This document shows positions 6,337-49,953 of a stretch of 64,000 bases of DNA, piece by piece. The stretch is from Marinilabilia salmonicolor JCM 21150. Its GTDB lineage: Bacteria; Bacteroidota; Bacteroidia; Bacteroidales; Marinilabiliaceae. The position numbers and the translations under genes were made by a program. How positions within the stretch are numbered: position 1 is the stretch's first letter; every line of letters starts with the position of its first letter. The DNA is taken from NCBI RefSeq assembly GCF_000259075.1, contig NZ_AJKI01000026.1, positions 1-64,000 on the forward strand, read 5' to 3'. The notes beneath the pieces are model-generated. The model ran no database searches. It was not told where the DNA came from and was given only the letters and a program-made list of their open reading frames with translations.

Positions 6337-8676
6337 TTAGATATTGGGAGTTTCCCATTTTTTAGTCTCAGCACAAACAACATCCACGACTTCTTCGCCA
6401 ACCTGTACTTTAAAATCTCCTTCTTCCAGAATCCACTTTCCGTCAGCACCAACAAACGCGAGATCAGAACCTTTAAGGGTCATAGTAACTGTCTTTGTTT
6501 CTCCTGGCTGAATTTCAACTTTCTCGAAATTACGCAAACGACGCACATCAGGAGTCAATGAAGCCACAAGATCACTGCTAAACAGCAAAACACTTTCCTT
6601 CCCTACAACATCACCGGTATTGGTCACGTCCACAGTAAAAGTCAGCTCGTCTCCGGCTGTAAAGGAGGATTTATCCACAGAAAGATTGCTGTAATCGAAA
6701 TCGGTATAGCTCAAACCATAACCAAATGCCCATTGAAACGACATCTGAGAATTGTAGTTGTATGCACCTTCCATCATACCGGTTTGCTCGCTGGGTTTGT
6801 AATCATAACTGCCCAACGAATTCACTGCTTTAGGATAAGAGAACGGCAGCTTACCGCTGAAATTCACATCACCACTAACCAAATTGGCCAAAGCATCACC
6901 ACCAAAGTTTCCGGGCAACATCACATTTACCACAGCATCTGCCAACGGTTCAATTTCACTTAATACACGAGGACGACCACTGTTAATCACCAATACAATT
7001 GGTTTGCCGGTCTTGCTCAGGGCTTTAACCAGATTAAGTTGATTCTCTGACAAAGTCAGATCATTCAGATTTCCGGGCGTTTCACAATAGGAGTTTTCAC
7101 CAATGCAGGCAAAAATCATATCCACATTACGTGCAGCCGCAACAGCCTTTTCGATTTCAGGCTCATTCTCTTCCCAGTACTGGCCATCATTATCGTATGT
7201 TACACCGGGTTCATAAACCACTTTACTGCTTCCAAATCTGGCTTTAAAAGCCTCCTGAATGGTATTGTGCTTTGCAGCAAATTTATCAGCACCTGTTCCC
7301 TGCCACGTGTAAGACCATCCACCATTTAATGTACGCATTGAGTTGGCGTTGGGGCCTGTAACCAAAATCCTCTTCCCGTCAACCAAAGGCAAGACATCGT
7401 CCTCATTTTTCAACAATACGATAGATTCTTCAGCAGCCTGCAAAGCAGCTTTACCAAATTCCTCACCTCCAAACAACGGGAAATCTTCCACCTCGTAAAC
7501 GGGAGTTTCAAAAAGTCCCAAACGATACTTCATCCGTAATACACGACGAACCGCATCATCGATACGACTCATCTTCACTTCTCCATCTTCCACCAATTCT
7601 TTCAAAAGAACACAGAAATCCCAGTTATACGGTTCCATTGCCATATCGATACCGGCATTGATGGCCTGTTTAATGGCGTCTTTTTTGTCGGCTGCAGTTT
7701 TCTCTCTTGTATAAAGATTATTGATATCAGCCCAATCGGTAACAACCATTCCATCCCAATTCAGATCTTCTTTAAGCCATTCAGTCAATAATTCATAACT
7801 GGCATGCACAGGCACTCCATTAACAGAACCAGAGTTCACCATAACACTTAAAGCTCCTGCTTCTATGGCTTCCTTGAAAGGGGCAAAATGCTTTTCACGT
7901 AACTGTTGTTCACTGATAATTGCAGGAGTCCGGTCTTTCCCTGAAACAGACGCACCATATCCCATATAATGCTTCATACAAACAGCAATTTGCTCTTTAC
8001 CAACATTATTGGGATCATCCCCCTGGTGCCCAATAACAGCTTCGTGGGCCATTTCTGCATTCAATAACGCATCTTCACCGTAATTTTCCCACATACGCGG
8101 CCAGCGCGCATCACGCCCAAGGTCAACCGTTGGTGCAAAAGTCCAGGGTACACTACCCGCTTTAGTTTCATAAGCTGTTATCTCTCCACCTCTATGAACC
8201 AAAGAGCGGTTAAAGGTTGCCCCCATATTCAGTGTCTGAGGAAACATTGTACCATCCAGAATATAGGTAGAGCCATGAATCTGATCCAATCCGTAAATAG
8301 CCGGGATACCAATTTCCTCCAGAGATTTTTCCTGAATTTTACTGATGATCTCATGCCATTTATCTCTGGTCTGAGCAGTGGTTCCGGGAGTATTTAGAAT
8401 AGAACCCACTTTGTATTTTCCAATTACTGTATCCAACAATGCCTCGCTCAATTGGAAATCACCTTGATGAACCGATCCGGGAACACCCAATACGTCGATA
8501 GTCAACTGAGTCATTTGCCCGATTTTTTCTTCAAGAGTCATTTCGCTAAGCAAAGCCTCCACTTTCTGCTCAATCTCTGCATCTTTGGGAATTGCAGGCT
8601 CTGCACTTTTTTGAGGTGAAGAGTTGCACGCCTGCAAAAACGCAACAGCAAGTAAAAAAATAAAAATTCGTTTCAT
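6337..8676 (-). CDS. bglX: GH3 beta-glucosidase-type lipoprotein, BglX-like
   Basis: This 779-residue protein has a lipoprotein signal (LAVAFLQAC, Cys 17), a GH3 N-terminal barrel (about 40-370), a GH3 C-terminal domain (about 420-640) and a fibronectin-like domain (about 685-765). The nucleophile Asp is in [10 protein letters not shown] and the likely acid/base Glu in [10 protein letters not shown]. The family releases glucose from beta-linked gluco-oligosaccharides; the ENSYCETPG segment resembles broad exo-beta-1,3/1,4-glucanases. It follows another GH3 gene on the same strand (65-bp gap), so the two probably form an operon for beta-glucan breakdown in the periplasm or at the outer membrane. 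Confidence 0.88.
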
Positions 8677-45030: not shown

Positions 45031-45223
45031 ATTATTTGTCGTTTATCTTTAACATTTGATTTTGGATCACGAAAATAATCATGGAAATATTGAGAATGAA
45101 ACCAAATAAAGGATGAAATAAGGGGAGCAACCTGTCAAAAACTAAAAATCAGAAACAACCTCGTTCTGTTGCCCACAGAAAATGATTACTTTTATACTTC
45201 ATACACATGAAAAAACAAAAACC

Positions 45224-46147
45224 ATGAAAAACCTTTTATTCTTCTCAGCAATAATCCTTATAACCTCCTGCTCTTCAGGCATTAAACCTGTCGAAAGCAC
45301 CCCAACTGCCCAATTAGGGGAAGGTGCTATCTGGCATCCCGAAAAAGAAGCTTTGCTTTGGGTGGATATCACCGGAGGCAAGGTATATATGTACAAACCA
45401 GGCAAAGGAATGATTCACGACATCTCTCTTGAAAGTATGGTAGGTACGGTGGTGCCGGCAACCGGAGAATATTTTGCCATTGCAGCCCAGGAAACAGGGA
45501 TTTCCGGATTAAAAGAGGACGGGACCAAACAAAAAATTGCTGATTTTCCGGCCGATGCACTTTCCAATGTGCGGTTCAACGACGGCAAATGTGATCCGGA
45601 AGGACGTTTTTGGGTTGGAACCATGGAAAAAACAGCAAAAGAGGGTGCTGCCAAACTCTATATGTTGGGGGACGACAGCCTGCACATCAAAAAAAGTAAC
45701 ATCACTATTTCCAATGGAATTGTCTGGGATACCAATAAAAACATCATGTACTACATTGATACCCCGACGCAACAAGTGGCAGCATACGATTATGAGCCTG
45801 AAACCGGAGCCATCTCCAATAAGCGGGTTGTAGTGGAAGTCCCCAAAGAAAAGGGAAGTCCTGACGGAATGAGCATTGATGCAGAAGGCAAACTCTGGAT
45901 AGCTCACTGGGGTGGCAACGGCGTTTATCGTTGGGATCCGGAAACCGGAAACCTGATGGAGAAAATTGAAGTACCAGCTCCCAACGTTACCTCCTGCGCA
46001 TTCGGAGGGTCTGATCTTACCACCCTCTACATTACTACTGCACGCGAGGGACTATCGGAAGAACAGCTAAAAACTTATCCTCAAAGCGGGTCTTTGTTTG
46101 TAATAGAAACAAATGTAAAGGGGACACAGGCTAATCTGTTTAAATAA
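45224..46147 (+). CDS. SMP-30/gluconolactonase-like lipoprotein
   Basis: This 307-residue protein (from MKNLLFFSAII) has a lipoprotein signal (ILITSC) and a six-blade propeller with AQLGEGAIWHPEKEALLWVD (metal Glu), VRFNDGKCDPEGRFWVGTM and SPDGMSIDAEGKLWIAHWGG, the marks of SMP-30/gluconolactonase. It would open sugar lactones in the periplasm. I chose the ATG at 45224 because it starts the signal peptide. Confidence 0.88.
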   Translation: MKNLLFFSAIILITSCSSGIKPVESTPTAQLGEGAIWHPEKEALLWVDITGGKVYMYKPGKGMIHDISLESMVGTVVPATGEYFAIAAQETGISGLKEDGTKQKIADFPADALSNVRFNDGKCDPEGRFWVGTMEKTAKEGAAKLYMLGDDSLHIKKSNITISNGIVWDTNKNIMYYIDTPTQQVAAYDYEPETGAISNKRVVVEVPKEKGSPDGMSIDAEGKLWIAHWGGNGVYRWDPETGNLMEKIEVPAPNVTSCAFGGSDLTTLYITTAREGLSEEQLKTYPQSGSLFVIETNVKGTQANLFK

Positions 46148-46160
46148 AACAGGAAATTTA

Positions 46161-46187
46161 TTCCAACCTTTTTTGCTCTTCATCGTC
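46161..46187 (+). promoter_or_regulatory. ECF-type promoter of the sigma operon
   Basis: TTCCAACC (46161-46168), 15 bases, then CGTC (46184-46187), 25 bases before the ATG of the first gene. The same motif with the same spacing lies upstream of the DUF4382 gene (48844-48870). AAC and CGTC are typical -35 and -10 cores of ECF sigma promoters. Confidence 0.6.
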
Positions 46188-46212
46188 TTTAAAATACCAA
46201 AAACAACAAAAA

Positions 46213-47001
46213 ATGCGCAAACAAAGGTTCTATCTGCTGATTTTAACAACATTGATACTGGGGGCATGTCAAAAAGACGAACTGACATTGCCCGCCAGTG
46301 TGGATGTAAACTTCGACCTTATACCCTTTGTTAAAAGCGATATTGATTATCAATCAAGTCAGGCTCTGCTCAAAAACAGTTCCCTAAGTAATACTGACAT
46401 CCTTGGGCAAACCCCACCTCCGGGATTAATTAAAAAAATGGAGATTTTTAAAGCCACTTTTTTCATCACCGACATGATTATAGAAGGAATAAGAAAACAG
46501 GGTGCTGATGTATATGAGACCATTCCCTTTGATCCTCCCCTGGAGATTCAACTGGACGAGAGAAAAACCACGTCCCAACATCTTTCCTTTGACATTCCTC
46601 AGGGGGTGTACGAAAAACTCGAACTCAGGATTTTTATGGGCACAGAGAACCACACCGCATTGGAATTCCAAGGAGAAGTTACCCCGGGAAAATCACCAAC
46701 AATCACTTTCAATTATCAGTTTGTTCTGAAACAGGAAGTAACGATCCAGGCAACCAAAAAGGCCGGAAGACCCGGCGACAGTATTATTCTGAATAAGGAC
46801 CACAAAGAGCAGGCATCCCTTAACCTGGATGCAGATTACTTTTTCAAATTTTTCCCAATTCCTTTGTTAGCTCAACATAAAAAAGAGGAACTCACAGAGG
46901 GAAACGAAATAATCATAAGCAATATCAACGAAAAAGATACACCCTTTTTTACAGCTATGAGTGAAAGACTTGAAGAGTCTTTTTCTTTAGTTTTTGAATA
47001 G
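46213..47001 (+). CDS. Hypothetical lipoprotein of the ECF operon
   Basis: This 262-residue protein has a lipoprotein signal (LTTLILGAC, Cys 19). The mature part is beta-rich, with FKATFFITDMIIEGIRKQGAD and a central FDIPQGVYEKLELRIFMG segment. That pattern resembles DUF4382-like lipoproteins such as the gene at 48937, but the match is loose. It starts the operon that continues with the ECF sigma factor (5-bp gap) and its membrane partner, so it is probably part of the signal or envelope output. Confidence 0.7.
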   Translation: MRKQRFYLLILTTLILGACQKDELTLPASVDVNFDLIPFVKSDIDYQSSQALLKNSSLSNTDILGQTPPPGLIKKMEIFKATFFITDMIIEGIRKQGADVYETIPFDPPLEIQLDERKTTSQHLSFDIPQGVYEKLELRIFMGTENHTALEFQGEVTPGKSPTITFNYQFVLKQEVTIQATKKAGRPGDSIILNKDHKEQASLNLDADYFFKFFPIPLLAQHKKEELTEGNEIIISNINEKDTPFFTAMSERLEESFSLVFE

Positions 47002-47006
47002 CATGA

Positions 47007-47564
47007 ATGGAGAAAGAACTGTTTCCTGAAGAGGAGGTAATAGAAGGCTGCAAGGAAAAAAAGCGATATTATCAGGAACTGTTATATCGCCGTTTTGCCC
47101 CGAAAATGTACGGGGTGTGTCTTAGTTATGCCCAAAACCGGGAGCAGGCAAGTGATGTTTTACACGATTCTTTTTTGAAAATATTCAGAAATATTCAATC
47201 ATACAAAAACCAGGGTTCTTTTGAAGGTTGGATTCGACGTATTGTCACCAATACAGCAATTGACCATATTCGAAGAAATATTAAAAACGTACCGCTGATT
47301 AATGAGGAGATCCCGGAAACGGAAGAGATAGACGAAGAAACTGTTTCCATCAGCATGAATGAATTGCACCAACAGGTAGCGCGCTTGCCGGAAGGAGCCA
47401 GAATTGTATTCAACTTATATGCTCTGGAGGGAATGACACACCATGAAATTGCAGAAAAACTGAACATTACAACAGGAACATCCAAGTCGCAATTCAGCCG
47501 GGCGCGACAATTGCTTCAGGGATGGGTAAAAGAATTAATGCACAAAAAAGATGGACTTTCTTAA
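47007..47564 (+). CDS. ECF RNA polymerase sigma factor
   Basis: This 185-residue protein has sigma region 2 (LLYRRFAPKMYGVCLSYAQN, then DVLHDSFLKIFRNI and GWIRRIVTNTAIDHIRR) and region 4 (LPEGARIVFNLYALEGMTHHEIAEKLNITTGTSKSQFSRAR). It directs RNA polymerase to a small regulon. The next gene overlaps it by 14 bp and encodes its likely anti-sigma factor. Two TTCCAACC-N15-CGTC motifs, one before this operon and one after it, are candidate targets, giving a self-activating loop. Confidence 0.9.
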   Translation: MEKELFPEEEVIEGCKEKKRYYQELLYRRFAPKMYGVCLSYAQNREQASDVLHDSFLKIFRNIQSYKNQGSFEGWIRRIVTNTAIDHIRRNIKNVPLINEEIPETEEIDEETVSISMNELHQQVARLPEGARIVFNLYALEGMTHHEIAEKLNITTGTSKSQFSRARQLLQGWVKELMHKKDGLS

Positions 47565-48840
47565 GTGGTATAAAAACACAGTAGATTCAGGCCAGGAAGA
47601 GCCTCCTGACTATACATGGGAAGATATTCAGAATGATCTGGATATTGACCATGTGTATGAACGCCTCGAAAGATCACTGCAGAAAGACCGCCGGAAAATC
47701 TGGATTTGGCGGGCATCCTCTGCTGCCGGTATTCTTTTGTTGCTTTCAGTAGGAACAATGCTCATAAATCGTTTTCGACAAACAACCACTGAACCCCCCA
47801 TTGCTATCAATTCATCCTCACCCCCAACAACTCTGCATCAACCTGAGAGCATTGCCCCTCCCCTGCTACAAACAGATACCAGCTCCCTTCAGGAAATGTC
47901 TCACACCCTAATTATTCCTATACAGTCAACCCAGAAAAAACAAAAAAACGATACTGATAAGAGTATCCTGATGGCAGACCTGCAACCGGAACCGGATAAT
48001 CAGACAATAATAGTAAATCCGGATTCATTTCACATCGAAACTGCATCCCCTGTGTTTCCCATGGCGGGAAACGCCGGCCACATAGGAATCAACAAGGACA
48101 GGCTTTCCCCAATGAGTTTCATCATCCCTGAAGCCAAAATGTCCATAGATTACGAAACACTTCAGGCCCATATTGAGATGCCGGAACCGAAACAAGAACC
48201 AATCTTCCCTGAAAGAAGCAATACAAATCAGATTCTTTCCAGAATTACCATCTTTGCGGCTGGCGAACTGGCAAATACCTGGCTCATCAGCCCCAAAACA
48301 AAAGAGGCGTTCGATCCACAAGACTTTACGGCCAACCAGACAACCATAAAACAAAATTACGGGATCGGGATTTCCGGAAACATTACAGAGCGATGGGAGA
48401 TAGTAGGACAGTTCAGTTTCGCCCGACAAACCGGCCAACATTACAAAGAGTACTACCAGGGGAAATATGTCTCCAACAACATTGACCTGGAATATACAGA
48501 CATTGCCTTAAGAGCCCGCTACAGGCCATTTAAAAGAAATCTGAACCATGCATTTTCAACAGGCCTTTATTCTGCATTTTTAAATGATGCACATCAATTT
48601 ATCAGCAACCAAAGAACAGACATCTCAACAGATTATACAAAAACTGACTTTGGCATCATTGCAGGATACCAATATTTCGCTCCTGTAACGAACAAAATAA
48701 CGCTGGCAGCAGGTGCGTTTTACAGGCAGGGATTGAAAAACATCTTCGCAGGCAACGATTTAATTTCCAGCAATCTAAACCAATCCTCCAACACATCTTT
48801 TAACTTCACCATTTCGGTTGGTTACACATTTTCTTTATAA
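47551..48840 (+). CDS. Dual-membrane anti-sigma factor candidate (Dma-like)
   Basis: This 429-residue protein has a short cytosolic part (1-50, DFLKWYKNTVDSGQ with helical VYERLERSLQKD), one membrane helix (about 51-73), a long Pro/Ser/Gln-rich periplasmic linker (about 75-230), and a C-terminal beta-barrel (about 233-429) with alternating aromatic strands, ending in YTFSL. So one chain seems to span the inner membrane, periplasm and outer membrane. Such anti-sigma factors were described in Bacteroides thetaiotaomicron, where they affect vesicle formation. It overlaps the sigma gene by 14 bp, which fits coupled synthesis. Topology is read from sequence only. Confidence 0.78.
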   Translation: MDFLKWYKNTVDSGQEEPPDYTWEDIQNDLDIDHVYERLERSLQKDRRKIWIWRASSAAGILLLLSVGTMLINRFRQTTTEPPIAINSSSPPTTLHQPESIAPPLLQTDTSSLQEMSHTLIIPIQSTQKKQKNDTDKSILMADLQPEPDNQTIIVNPDSFHIETASPVFPMAGNAGHIGINKDRLSPMSFIIPEAKMSIDYETLQAHIEMPEPKQEPIFPERSNTNQILSRITIFAAGELANTWLISPKTKEAFDPQDFTANQTTIKQNYGIGISGNITERWEIVGQFSFARQTGQHYKEYYQGKYVSNNIDLEYTDIALRARYRPFKRNLNHAFSTGLYSAFLNDAHQFISNQRTDISTDYTKTDFGIIAGYQYFAPVTNKITLAAGAFYRQGLKNIFAGNDLISSNLNQSSNTSFNFTISVGYTFSL

Positions 48841-48843
48841 TTT

Positions 48844-48870
48844 TTCCAACCCTTCACCAACCTCCACGTC
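48844..48870 (+). promoter_or_regulatory. Second ECF-type promoter, before the DUF4382 gene
   Basis: TTCCAACC (48844-48851), 15 bases, CGTC (48867-48870), 66 bases before the ATG at 48937. Same core words and spacing as at 46161-46187. Confidence 0.6.
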
Positions 48871-48936
48871 TATTCATTAAAGTCCGGAGATAAAACCGGA
48901 GAATTTATTTTTTTAACTAAAAAATCAAGGGCAATT

Positions 48937-49836
48937 ATGAAGAAATTAATCTTTCTGACAATCGGGTTAATTACACCATTTCTATTTTTATCCTGTAATG
49001 AGGATGGAAATTCAACCTCAGGAACAGGTACTTTGAAACTTTCAATAACAGATGCTCCGGTTGATACGGATGGCATCACGGCAGTCAATATTGCCGTTAA
49101 AGAAGTGCAGTATCACGTGGAAGGTGAAGAATGGAAATCGTTTGAAGGATTTGAACCGGATACATTTAATTTATTGGAGTTGACGGGAGGCGAATCCGAA
49201 TTATTGGGACAATTTGAATTAGGATCAGGTAATTATACCCAACTGCGCTTTATTTTAGATTTGCCTGTTGGAGTGCCTGCATCGGCAATGGCCAACCCCG
49301 GATGCTACCTGGAATTTGAAGATGGCTCTACCCAACCACTTTTCGTACCCAGCGGAGCTCAAACCGGGTACAAAGCCACCGGTAACTTCACGGTTCCTGT
49401 GAATGGGCAGATAGCCGTTACAGCCGATTTCGACGCACGAAAATCAGTTGTTAAAGCCGGCAATTCGGGCAAATACATTCTCAAGCCCACCATTCGGCTG
49501 ATTGCGGACAATCAGGCGGGAAGCATCTCGGGAACTGTCACCAATATTCCCGAAGGAAGCAGCATAATGGTTTATGCCTATGAAGATGGTATTTATACAG
49601 AAGAAGAAGCTGCAGAACCGGAAGAAGAAGCAGTCCGTTTTTCCAATGCCGTTACCAACTGGAAAGTTGATGAAGAAGGTAATTACACCTTGGCATTTTT
49701 GGCTCCGGGAGCTTACGATTTAATCGTTGTTGAAACCCTGGAGGGTGAATTCAGCCAGGTACTGAAGGTTTTGGAAGATATTCAGGTTGAAAGTCTTGAG
49801 GAAACAGTATTGGATATAGATATCAACGACCAGTAA
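48937..49836 (+). CDS. DUF4382 lipoprotein
   Basis: This 299-residue protein has a lipoprotein signal (TPFLFLSC) and a DUF4382 domain (about 27-190) with GTLKLSITDAPVDTDGITAV and the WKSFEGFEPDTFNLLEL segment, then a second beta-sandwich domain (195-299), like carboxypeptidase regulatory modules (GSISGTVTNIPEGSSIMVYAY). Its function is unknown. It reads after the anti-sigma gene with its own ECF-type motif and so is probably a main product of the sigma regulon at the cell envelope. A terminator hairpin begins in its stop codon. Confidence 0.85.
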   Translation: MKKLIFLTIGLITPFLFLSCNEDGNSTSGTGTLKLSITDAPVDTDGITAVNIAVKEVQYHVEGEEWKSFEGFEPDTFNLLELTGGESELLGQFELGSGNYTQLRFILDLPVGVPASAMANPGCYLEFEDGSTQPLFVPSGAQTGYKATGNFTVPVNGQIAVTADFDARKSVVKAGNSGKYILKPTIRLIADNQAGSISGTVTNIPEGSSIMVYAYEDGIYTEEEAAEPEEEAVRFSNAVTNWKVDEEGNYTLAFLAPGAYDLIVVETLEGEFSQVLKVLEDIQVESLEETVLDIDINDQ

Positions 49837-49859: not shown

Positions 49860-49895
49860 CCTTTTTTTGAACTTTTGGGTTAGGTTTAAGTTAGG

Positions 49896-49932
49896 AAAGC
49901 CGGTGGACAAACGTGTCCGCCGGCTTTTTTTG
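49896..49932. terminator. Second terminator, GC-rich
   Basis: AAAGCCGGTGGACA pairs with TGTCCGCCGGCTTT around AACG, followed by a T-run; it can also end the DUF1080 transcript from the minus side. Confidence 0.75.
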
Positions 49933-49953
49933 GCAATTGTTATTTTCTTCAAC

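Follow-up and report, generated by a model that had tools for sequence, protein, structure and literature searches.

A probable autoregulated Dma-type sigma factor switch with a DUF4382 lipoprotein output in Marinilabilia salmonicolor

Overview

The DNA considered here, referred to as the window, is the first 64,000 nucleotides (nt) of contig NZ_AJKI01000026.1 of Marinilabilia salmonicolor JCM 21150. It carries four genes at 46213-49836, all on the forward strand, that encode a lipoprotein outside any Pfam family (the first lipoprotein), an extracytoplasmic function (ECF) sigma factor, an anti-sigma factor with the layout of the Dma proteins of Bacteroides thetaiotaomicron, and a lipoprotein of family DUF4382 (the output protein). 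A promoter-like motif stands before the first of these genes and again before the fourth. Because this shared site is conserved in relatives, autoregulation together with a DUF4382 output is the best reading of the locus, and we consider it probable that the four genes make up an autoregulated sigma factor switch of the Dma type. The first lipoprotein, sigma factor, and anti-sigma factor genes are a tight operon, as indicated by a gap of 5 nt between the first two and an overlap of 14 nt between the open reading frames of the last two.

A shared promoter motif in the window and the genome

The motif TTCCAACC-N15-CGTC occurs twice in the 64-kb window, where 0.03 occurrences are expected, and none of 100 shuffled versions of the window contained two copies. 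Both copies lie exactly where the first-pass annotation, made from the window sequence, had placed them (Table 1). That annotation had also proposed a search of the whole genome, which in 4.98 Mb returned five matches, as against none for the reversed pattern; all five are intergenic, falling outside open reading frames of at least 70 amino acids (aa). A looser form of the motif (TCCAACC, with a spacer of 14 to 16) gave eight matches in the genome versus three for its control.

Conservation of the site pair

Among 71 genomes of the family, the anti-sigma factor turned up in 14, counting that of the window. To their loci were added those of like type from the best 80 of 588 sigma factor matches in named genomes, and removal of duplicates left 24 distinct loci, of which one is cut before the first gene (L075) and one inside the anti-sigma gene (L063). 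With some sites located by a looser pattern or by eye, a site appears upstream of the first lipoprotein gene in 22 of the 23 loci having that gene, with CGTC in 19 and CGTT or CGTA in three (L061, L063, and L117). A second site follows the anti-sigma gene in 19 of the 23 loci where this stretch is visible, including several in which it shows altered bases or a spacing of 14 (L029, L031, L062, L075, L084, L090, and L132). The output gene of L028, 1.2 kb off and behind two genes on the opposite strand, retains a site of its own.

The spacing within the motif is equal at the two sites in 14 of the 17 loci that have both sites and clear spacing. The pairs are 15/15 in six close loci, 16/16 in eight, and 15/14 in three members of one subgroup. 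This association was reached by 3 of 100,000 random pairings, a figure that is not a true probability, since the loci are related.

A pattern fixed from these earlier loci, [AT]T[AC]C[AC]ACC-N14..16-CGTC, was then applied to a new set. The anti-sigma profile found matches in 19 of 393 genomes of the order, two of them already known, and 18 loci (131,304 bases) were taken from the remaining 17 genomes. Setting aside one duplicate (L241, the same as L061) and two loci without the first lipoprotein (L256 and L257) leaves 15 independent loci; L247 is a cut locus within the set. Across the 18 loci the fixed pattern matched 18 times on the coding strand and never on the other strand or in the reversed controls. 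Seventeen of these matches fall at the two predicted places (16 of 17 once the duplicate is dropped), every one of the 18 has a spacing of 16, and 10 of the 15 independent loci have a match at one or both of the predicted places. Over both sets, the first or the second place is occupied by a site in 34 of 39 distinct loci, 24 by the looser reading and 10 of 15 by the fixed pattern. On this comparison of sequences, the predicted promoter pair is real.

Architecture of the anti-sigma factor

For the 429-residue anti-sigma factor, the first-pass annotation had proposed a cytosolic N-terminus, a single membrane helix, a linker, and a C-terminal barrel, and had called for a structure prediction. 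An AlphaFold2 model built on 13 sequences bears this layout out, returning a helix and an eight-strand barrel. The predicted helices span residues 2-13, 20-30, and 32-77, the last of which encloses the proposed membrane helix at 51-73. The score of the predicted local distance difference test (pLDDT) is below 50 over 73-217 and 219-226. Beyond these, residues 231-428 hold eight main strands, a block where pLDDT is mostly 76-90 and lower at 251-260 and 391-410. Averaged over the whole model, pLDDT is 59.4, and confidence is confined to the barrel. The N-terminal helices (pLDDT about 56-65) and the tether (below 50) score low, as such parts are expected to, which is not proof of them. By structure alignment, the barrel resembles OmpW (Z 18.3 over 170 residues, 3.1 A), OprF (Z 17.9), and OmpA (1qjp, Z 16.9). 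The anti-sigma factors of the close relatives L057 to L059 have their hydropathy peak, by sliding average, at residue 55. The tether is poorly conserved in the alignment, the far alignment rows, between genera, show 19-25% identity over the whole protein, and in all relatives examined the anti-sigma gene adjoins the sigma gene. The features that mark the Dma family are thus found here, namely a single membrane helix (at low confidence), a long disordered tether, a C-terminal barrel, and an adjacent ECF sigma factor. As modelled, the protein has the Dma layout of N-terminal part, helix, disordered tether, and barrel of the OmpA/OmpW type.

The sigma factor and its clade

A tree of 57 sigma factors places 23 lipoprotein-linked members, plus one at a contig edge, on one side of a branch with support 95/92, and 32 other sigma factors from the scan on the other side, together with that of L053, the second Dma-type sigma factor of the genome. 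The 32 were selected from 66 other scan loci, so the tree shows the coherence of the group and not its full diversity. In these 66 loci, some of them cut short, the first-lipoprotein profile had no match in the gene before the sigma gene. Among the members of the lipoprotein-linked clade are Nafulsella turpanensis, several Bacteroidales, and the cut locus, which is from Lentimicrobiaceae. Model TIGR02985 (Bacteroides sigma-70) matches the window sigma factor below its cut-off.

The second Dma-type pair, on the minus strand of contig C31 of the same genome, consists of a sigma factor (L053 3504-4013) 46% identical to that of the window and a 481-residue anti-sigma factor (L053 2083-3528) with a weak match, below cut-off, to OMP_b-brl_2. 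The pair lacks a first lipoprotein and is preceded by GCAACCTTT and then CATCTAAG, a related but different promoter.

The two lipoproteins

The output protein of the window scores 120.3 bits against PF14321, whose cut-off is 25. Pfam clearly identifies the output as DUF4382 in the window and L060; for L061, L062, and eight new loci, a profile built from the close group does so. More divergent outputs match DUF4382 below the cut-off (L028, L029, and L090) or never (L025 and both in L064); that of L090 also has a weak match to Pfam MbnP, again below cut-off. In L132, a Fib_succ_major protein (6947-7633) occupies the place of the output instead of a DUF4382 relative. A search of PDB sequences with the DUF4382 protein gave no matches.

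The first lipoprotein has no Pfam match at E up to 1, DUF4382 included, and a search of PDB sequences returned for it a single meaningless weak match (E 0.24). Its AlphaFold2 model is mostly beta, with a mean pLDDT of 82.9. Foldseek found nothing for this model at E up to 0.001. In structure alignment its best chain is MbnP (7l6g, Z 9.2 over 175 residues, 3.7 A), followed by fimbrillin-like proteins with Z of 7 to 8.5, near the level of common arrangements. A relationship to NigD is without sequence support and was rejected, there being no match to NigD_N or any other Pfam family; NigD_N has no match in the whole genome, in a search whose control did match Bacteroides ihuae.

Both proteins may carry signals for display at the surface. 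The first lipoprotein has the N-terminus C-Q-K-D-E-L, which fits C-X-K-(D/E)2-X, described in the available text of PMC5080379 as the optimal surface export signal of Capnocytophaga; the signal is kept after the cysteine in 13 of 18 aligned first lipoproteins. Output proteins often start with C-N/S-(D/E), a beginning that, by its sequence, resembles the acidic export signal proposed for Bacteroides fragilis (PMC5080379, available text).

Mature parts were compared by hhalign. The first lipoprotein against the DUF4382 outputs of close relatives gave a probability of 0.2%, and against the divergent outputs 39.9% (close group) and 74.4% (far group), while column shuffling, done 30 times for each of four pairings, reached 3.6% at most. 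Between DUF4382 outputs and divergent ones the probability was just 0.3%. A value of 97.2%, obtained with signal peptides included and all rows mixed, is not relied on. When profiles of the first lipoprotein and of the divergent outputs are iterated, each comes to reach the other. Direct homology between the first lipoprotein and DUF4382 was rejected, with a remote link only by way of the divergent outputs; that the first lipoprotein is possibly a remote relative of the output lipoproteins is suggestive only.

A survey of the phylum with the first-lipoprotein profile gave matches in 12 of 395 genomes. Among the 11 besides the window's own (L200 to L210), ten matches are lipoproteins without a neighbouring sigma factor, so the survey does not measure the module and points instead to a broad, mostly unnamed lipoprotein group around DUF4382. 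At L206 202-2403 (reverse complement), the lipoprotein is immediately preceded by a different, distant sigma factor (3.4e-12) and a protein of 254 residues that has a single hydrophobic stretch; here a lipoprotein of this group may have joined a sigma/anti-sigma pair independently.

Further sites and the size of the regulon

Five genomes of the genus were compared for further sites. In four (G000, G037, G038, and G039), a site with a diverged spacer lies about 150 nt upstream of the start codon of the same gene, whose copy in the window genome encodes SprB repeats and a type IX secretion system (T9SS) tail. The positions are L056 5567-5593, L166, L169, and L174; the site was not found in G036. 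A second extra site is present in four copies in three genomes, namely G000, G037 (twice), and G039 (L054 5357-5383, L167, L168, and L170). Behind it, L168 (a G037 copy) has an intact gene with a T9SS tail, L054 (in the window genome) and L167 have short gene remnants only, and L170 is without an open frame of at least 70 aa. Since the gene is intact only in L168, this promoter may have outlived its gene. In L246, outside these sites, an extra match to the fixed pattern (38-65) lies about 110 nt upstream of a lipoprotein-like gene of 574 residues, with the module 2 kb further downstream, and marks a possible further target.

The first-pass annotation had read the two sites of the window as autoregulation plus one output. 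The conserved site pair speaks for autoregulation and for the DUF4382 output; a single output is too narrow a count for the genus, with a site before the SprB-repeat gene in four of five genomes and at the second place in three. Counted over the family, 35 matches fall in the 14 module-bearing genomes, of which 19 belong to the locus and 16 lie elsewhere, as against 19 for the reversed control, and the 57 family genomes without the module have 36 as against 64. With off-locus sites at control level, a large regulon was rejected, and the predicted regulon is probably small and mostly local.

Proposed mechanism and alternatives

In the mechanism we consider probable, where sigma holding and membrane location follow published Dma proteins, the cytosolic N-terminus of the anti-sigma factor would hold the ECF sigma factor. 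The helix would be embedded in the inner membrane and the OmpA/OmpW-like barrel in the outer one, with the tether, about 150 residues long, crossing the periplasm between them. A disturbance of the outer membrane, or a ligand, may alter the barrel or the tether and so free the sigma factor, which would read the conserved pair of TTCCAACC-N15-CGTC sites. From site 1 it would restart the operon, making more first lipoprotein, sigma factor, and anti-sigma factor; from site 2 it would bring the DUF4382 lipoprotein to the surface. In Marinilabilia, T9SS-type surface proteins are candidate further targets, as judged by site conservation. The net response would be a small remodelling of the cell surface.

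Several observations weigh against this account. The first site was not found in one of the 23 loci with a first lipoprotein gene (L132), nor the second in four of the 23 visible loci (L027, L030, L060, and L117), two of which (L027 and L030) have an opposite-strand gene after the anti-sigma gene; in five of the 15 new loci (L246, L249, L253, L254, and L255), neither predicted place has a strict match. A later ATG was assumed for the first gene of L021, L027, L030, and L244, whose longest frame begins upstream of the site. The anti-sigma gene and the DUF4382 gene have no strong terminator between them, which could let read-through supply the output as well. Outside the locus, the motif is not enriched across the 14 module genomes of the family (16 matches versus 19 for the reversed control). 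G038 keeps the SprB-repeat-gene site though a window-type sigma factor was not found there, in an assembly 89% complete where the neighbouring SGL gene was likewise not found. Finally, the genome's nearest other sigma factor, that of L053, might share some of the sites.

The barrel protein could be an ordinary envelope-stress sensor, a gauge of the beta-barrel assembly machine (BAM) or of outer-membrane integrity that does nothing but signal misfolded or unassembled outer-membrane proteins, with the lipoproteins as repair factors and no specific ligand. We take this as a serious possibility, at somewhat less than an even chance: a pair of the same layout, EcfO-Reo of P. vulgatus, is induced by an outer-membrane-active toxin and probably by envelope stress (PMC9308784 and PMC13114119, available text), and a small OmpA-like barrel is what would be expected of an assembly-machine client, but the low identity of the anti-sigma factor between genera and the presence of a second pair in the genome suggest different inputs. 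More doubtful is a role of the first lipoprotein in sensing, by which it would bind or cap the barrel at the cell surface and keep the switch off until its loss, or a ligand, frees the sigma factor. Its gene lies directly before the sigma gene in 23 clade members where this is visible and in 14 new loci, and the surface export signal seen in most aligned first lipoproteins fits the idea; yet the loci were partly picked by this very gene, and co-transcription fits feedback or output equally well. We think it unlikely that both lipoproteins are distant relatives on the cell surface, one, the first, docking on the barrel to reset or tune the switch as a feedback lid, the other serving as effector. 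If this were true, the surface-sensing loop of this Dma lineage would be closed by its own product.

The motifs themselves might be generic ECF sites of Bacteroidota, read by several sigma factors, with no dedicated unit. A similar upstream stretch precedes the second Dma-type pair, and CAACC-N-CGTC is also seen in some loci outside the lipoprotein-linked clade; against this, spacing covaries at both sites with the clade, and the fixed pattern in the new loci is confined to the two places and one other lipoprotein-like gene, so that we hold generic sites to be quite improbable. Chance similarity of two short sequences we count as already refuted. The motif is indeed short, and family-wide its off-locus sites are at background, but 34 of 39 distinct loci carry at least one site at the two places and the controls of the second set are without matches; conservation and controls together rule out a chance or artefactual origin of the pair.

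Relation to known systems

The switch proposed here, an autoregulated Dma-type pair with a DUF4382 output, shares with FecI/FecR the passage of an outer-membrane signal to an ECF sigma factor via an inner-membrane anti-sigma factor. FecI/FecR relies on separate proteins, a TonB-dependent transducer and FecR, whereas a single chain would serve in the window system.

The closest likeness is to Dma proteins, a new class of anti-sigma factors whose first paper, by the reference list of PMC13088901, dates from 2024. As given in the available text of that paper, Dma2 has an N-terminal sigma-binding part, a helix, a disordered tether, and a barrel, and is encoded beside the ECF sigma factor Das2, as in the window. 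In a dma2 deletion, the cognate sigma gene goes up together with the adjoining genes for DUF4943 and DUF4858 proteins, which the available text does not call lipoproteins; nor does that text name a DUF4382 protein or a lipoprotein gene before the sigma gene (PMC13088901). Dma1/Das1 is the founding member of the layout and works through a NigD-like protein (PMC13088901, available text), NigD1, of a family different from the lipoproteins here; NigD_N has no match in the window genome. Dma1 and Dma2 of Bacteroides thetaiotaomicron affect vesicles (PMC13088901, available text), an effect shown for Dma2; for the window system, a link to vesicles could be drawn by analogy only.

EcfO-Reo of Phocaeicola vulgatus and Bacteroides fragilis has the same sigma/anti-sigma layout, surface lipoproteins in its regulon, and a proposed role in outer-membrane stress; its lipoproteins are of another family, its response is a longer O-antigen, and no promoter motif was seen for it (PMC9308784 and PMC13114119, available text). 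Three NigD surface lipoproteins belong to the EcfO-Reo regulon, one of them adjoining ecfO by locus number (PMC13114119, available text). The first-pass annotation had held the DUF4382 and first-gene lipoproteins to be envelope outputs undescribed in this setting. We found no literature, among the matches listed, on this lipoprotein family or on DUF4382 in such a role (the one paper naming DUF4382 concerns archaea); in kind, surface lipoprotein outputs are already known from the NigD genes of the EcfO-Reo regulon. Literature searches on Dma, ECF21, barrel anti-sigma factors, and Marinilabilia anti-sigma factors gave nothing on this module among the matches listed, with subscription papers mostly outside coverage. 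The window system is of the same kind as Dma and belongs to a distinct lineage, marked by a partner lipoprotein of its own, a DUF4382 output, and a defined promoter pair.

For work on the signals, promoters, and direct outputs of Dma anti-sigma factors, this lineage has a promoter that can be read, a candidate output that is conserved, and a lipoprotein dedicated as partner. It is present in named strains that are not gut Bacteroides, namely Marinilabilia salmonicolor, Anaerophaga thermohalophila, and Nafulsella turpanensis. Control and reset of a barrel-tethered sigma factor may here be reduced to two promoters and a few small proteins. The same layout of two promoters and four genes recurs in many relatives, which makes the main output lipoprotein testable.

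Features of the locus and neighbouring genes

Table 1. Positions of the genes, candidate promoter sites, and predicted protein regions of the module in the window.
Feature	Position	Strand	Remarks
First lipoprotein gene	46213-47001	+	262 aa; no Pfam family
ECF sigma factor gene	47007-47564	+	185 aa; Sigma70_r2 3e-16, r4_2 1.1e-14
Dma-type anti-sigma gene	47551-48840	+	429 aa
DUF4382 lipoprotein gene	48937-49836	+	299 aa; PF14321 9.2e-35; signal peptide ends SC; proposed main output
Putative promoter site 1, TTCCAACC-N15-CGTC	46161-46187	+	25 nt upstream of first lipoprotein start codon
Putative promoter site 2, TTCCAACC-N15-CGTC	48844-48870	+	3 nt after anti-sigma stop, 66 nt before DUF4382 start
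Predicted anti-sigma membrane helix, about residues 51-73	47701-47769	+	inside model helix 32-77
Predicted disordered periplasmic tether, residues 78-225	47782-48225	+	low pLDDT; poor alignment conservation
Predicted 8-strand outer-membrane-type barrel, residues 231-428	48241-48834	+	AlphaFold2 and structure alignment
Strong intrinsic terminator downstream of DUF4382 gene	49890-49936	+	-29.2 kcal/mol, z -6.3; 0 of 200 shuffles as good

The DUF4382 leader contains a hairpin (48883-48900) that is no better than its shuffles (z -0.83) and not plainly conserved. The gene for an SMP-30/gluconolactonase-like lipoprotein, at 45182-46147 of the window, stands directly upstream of the module in six close loci and not in the far loci of the family; being present in close loci only, it is probably a mere neighbour outside the switch.

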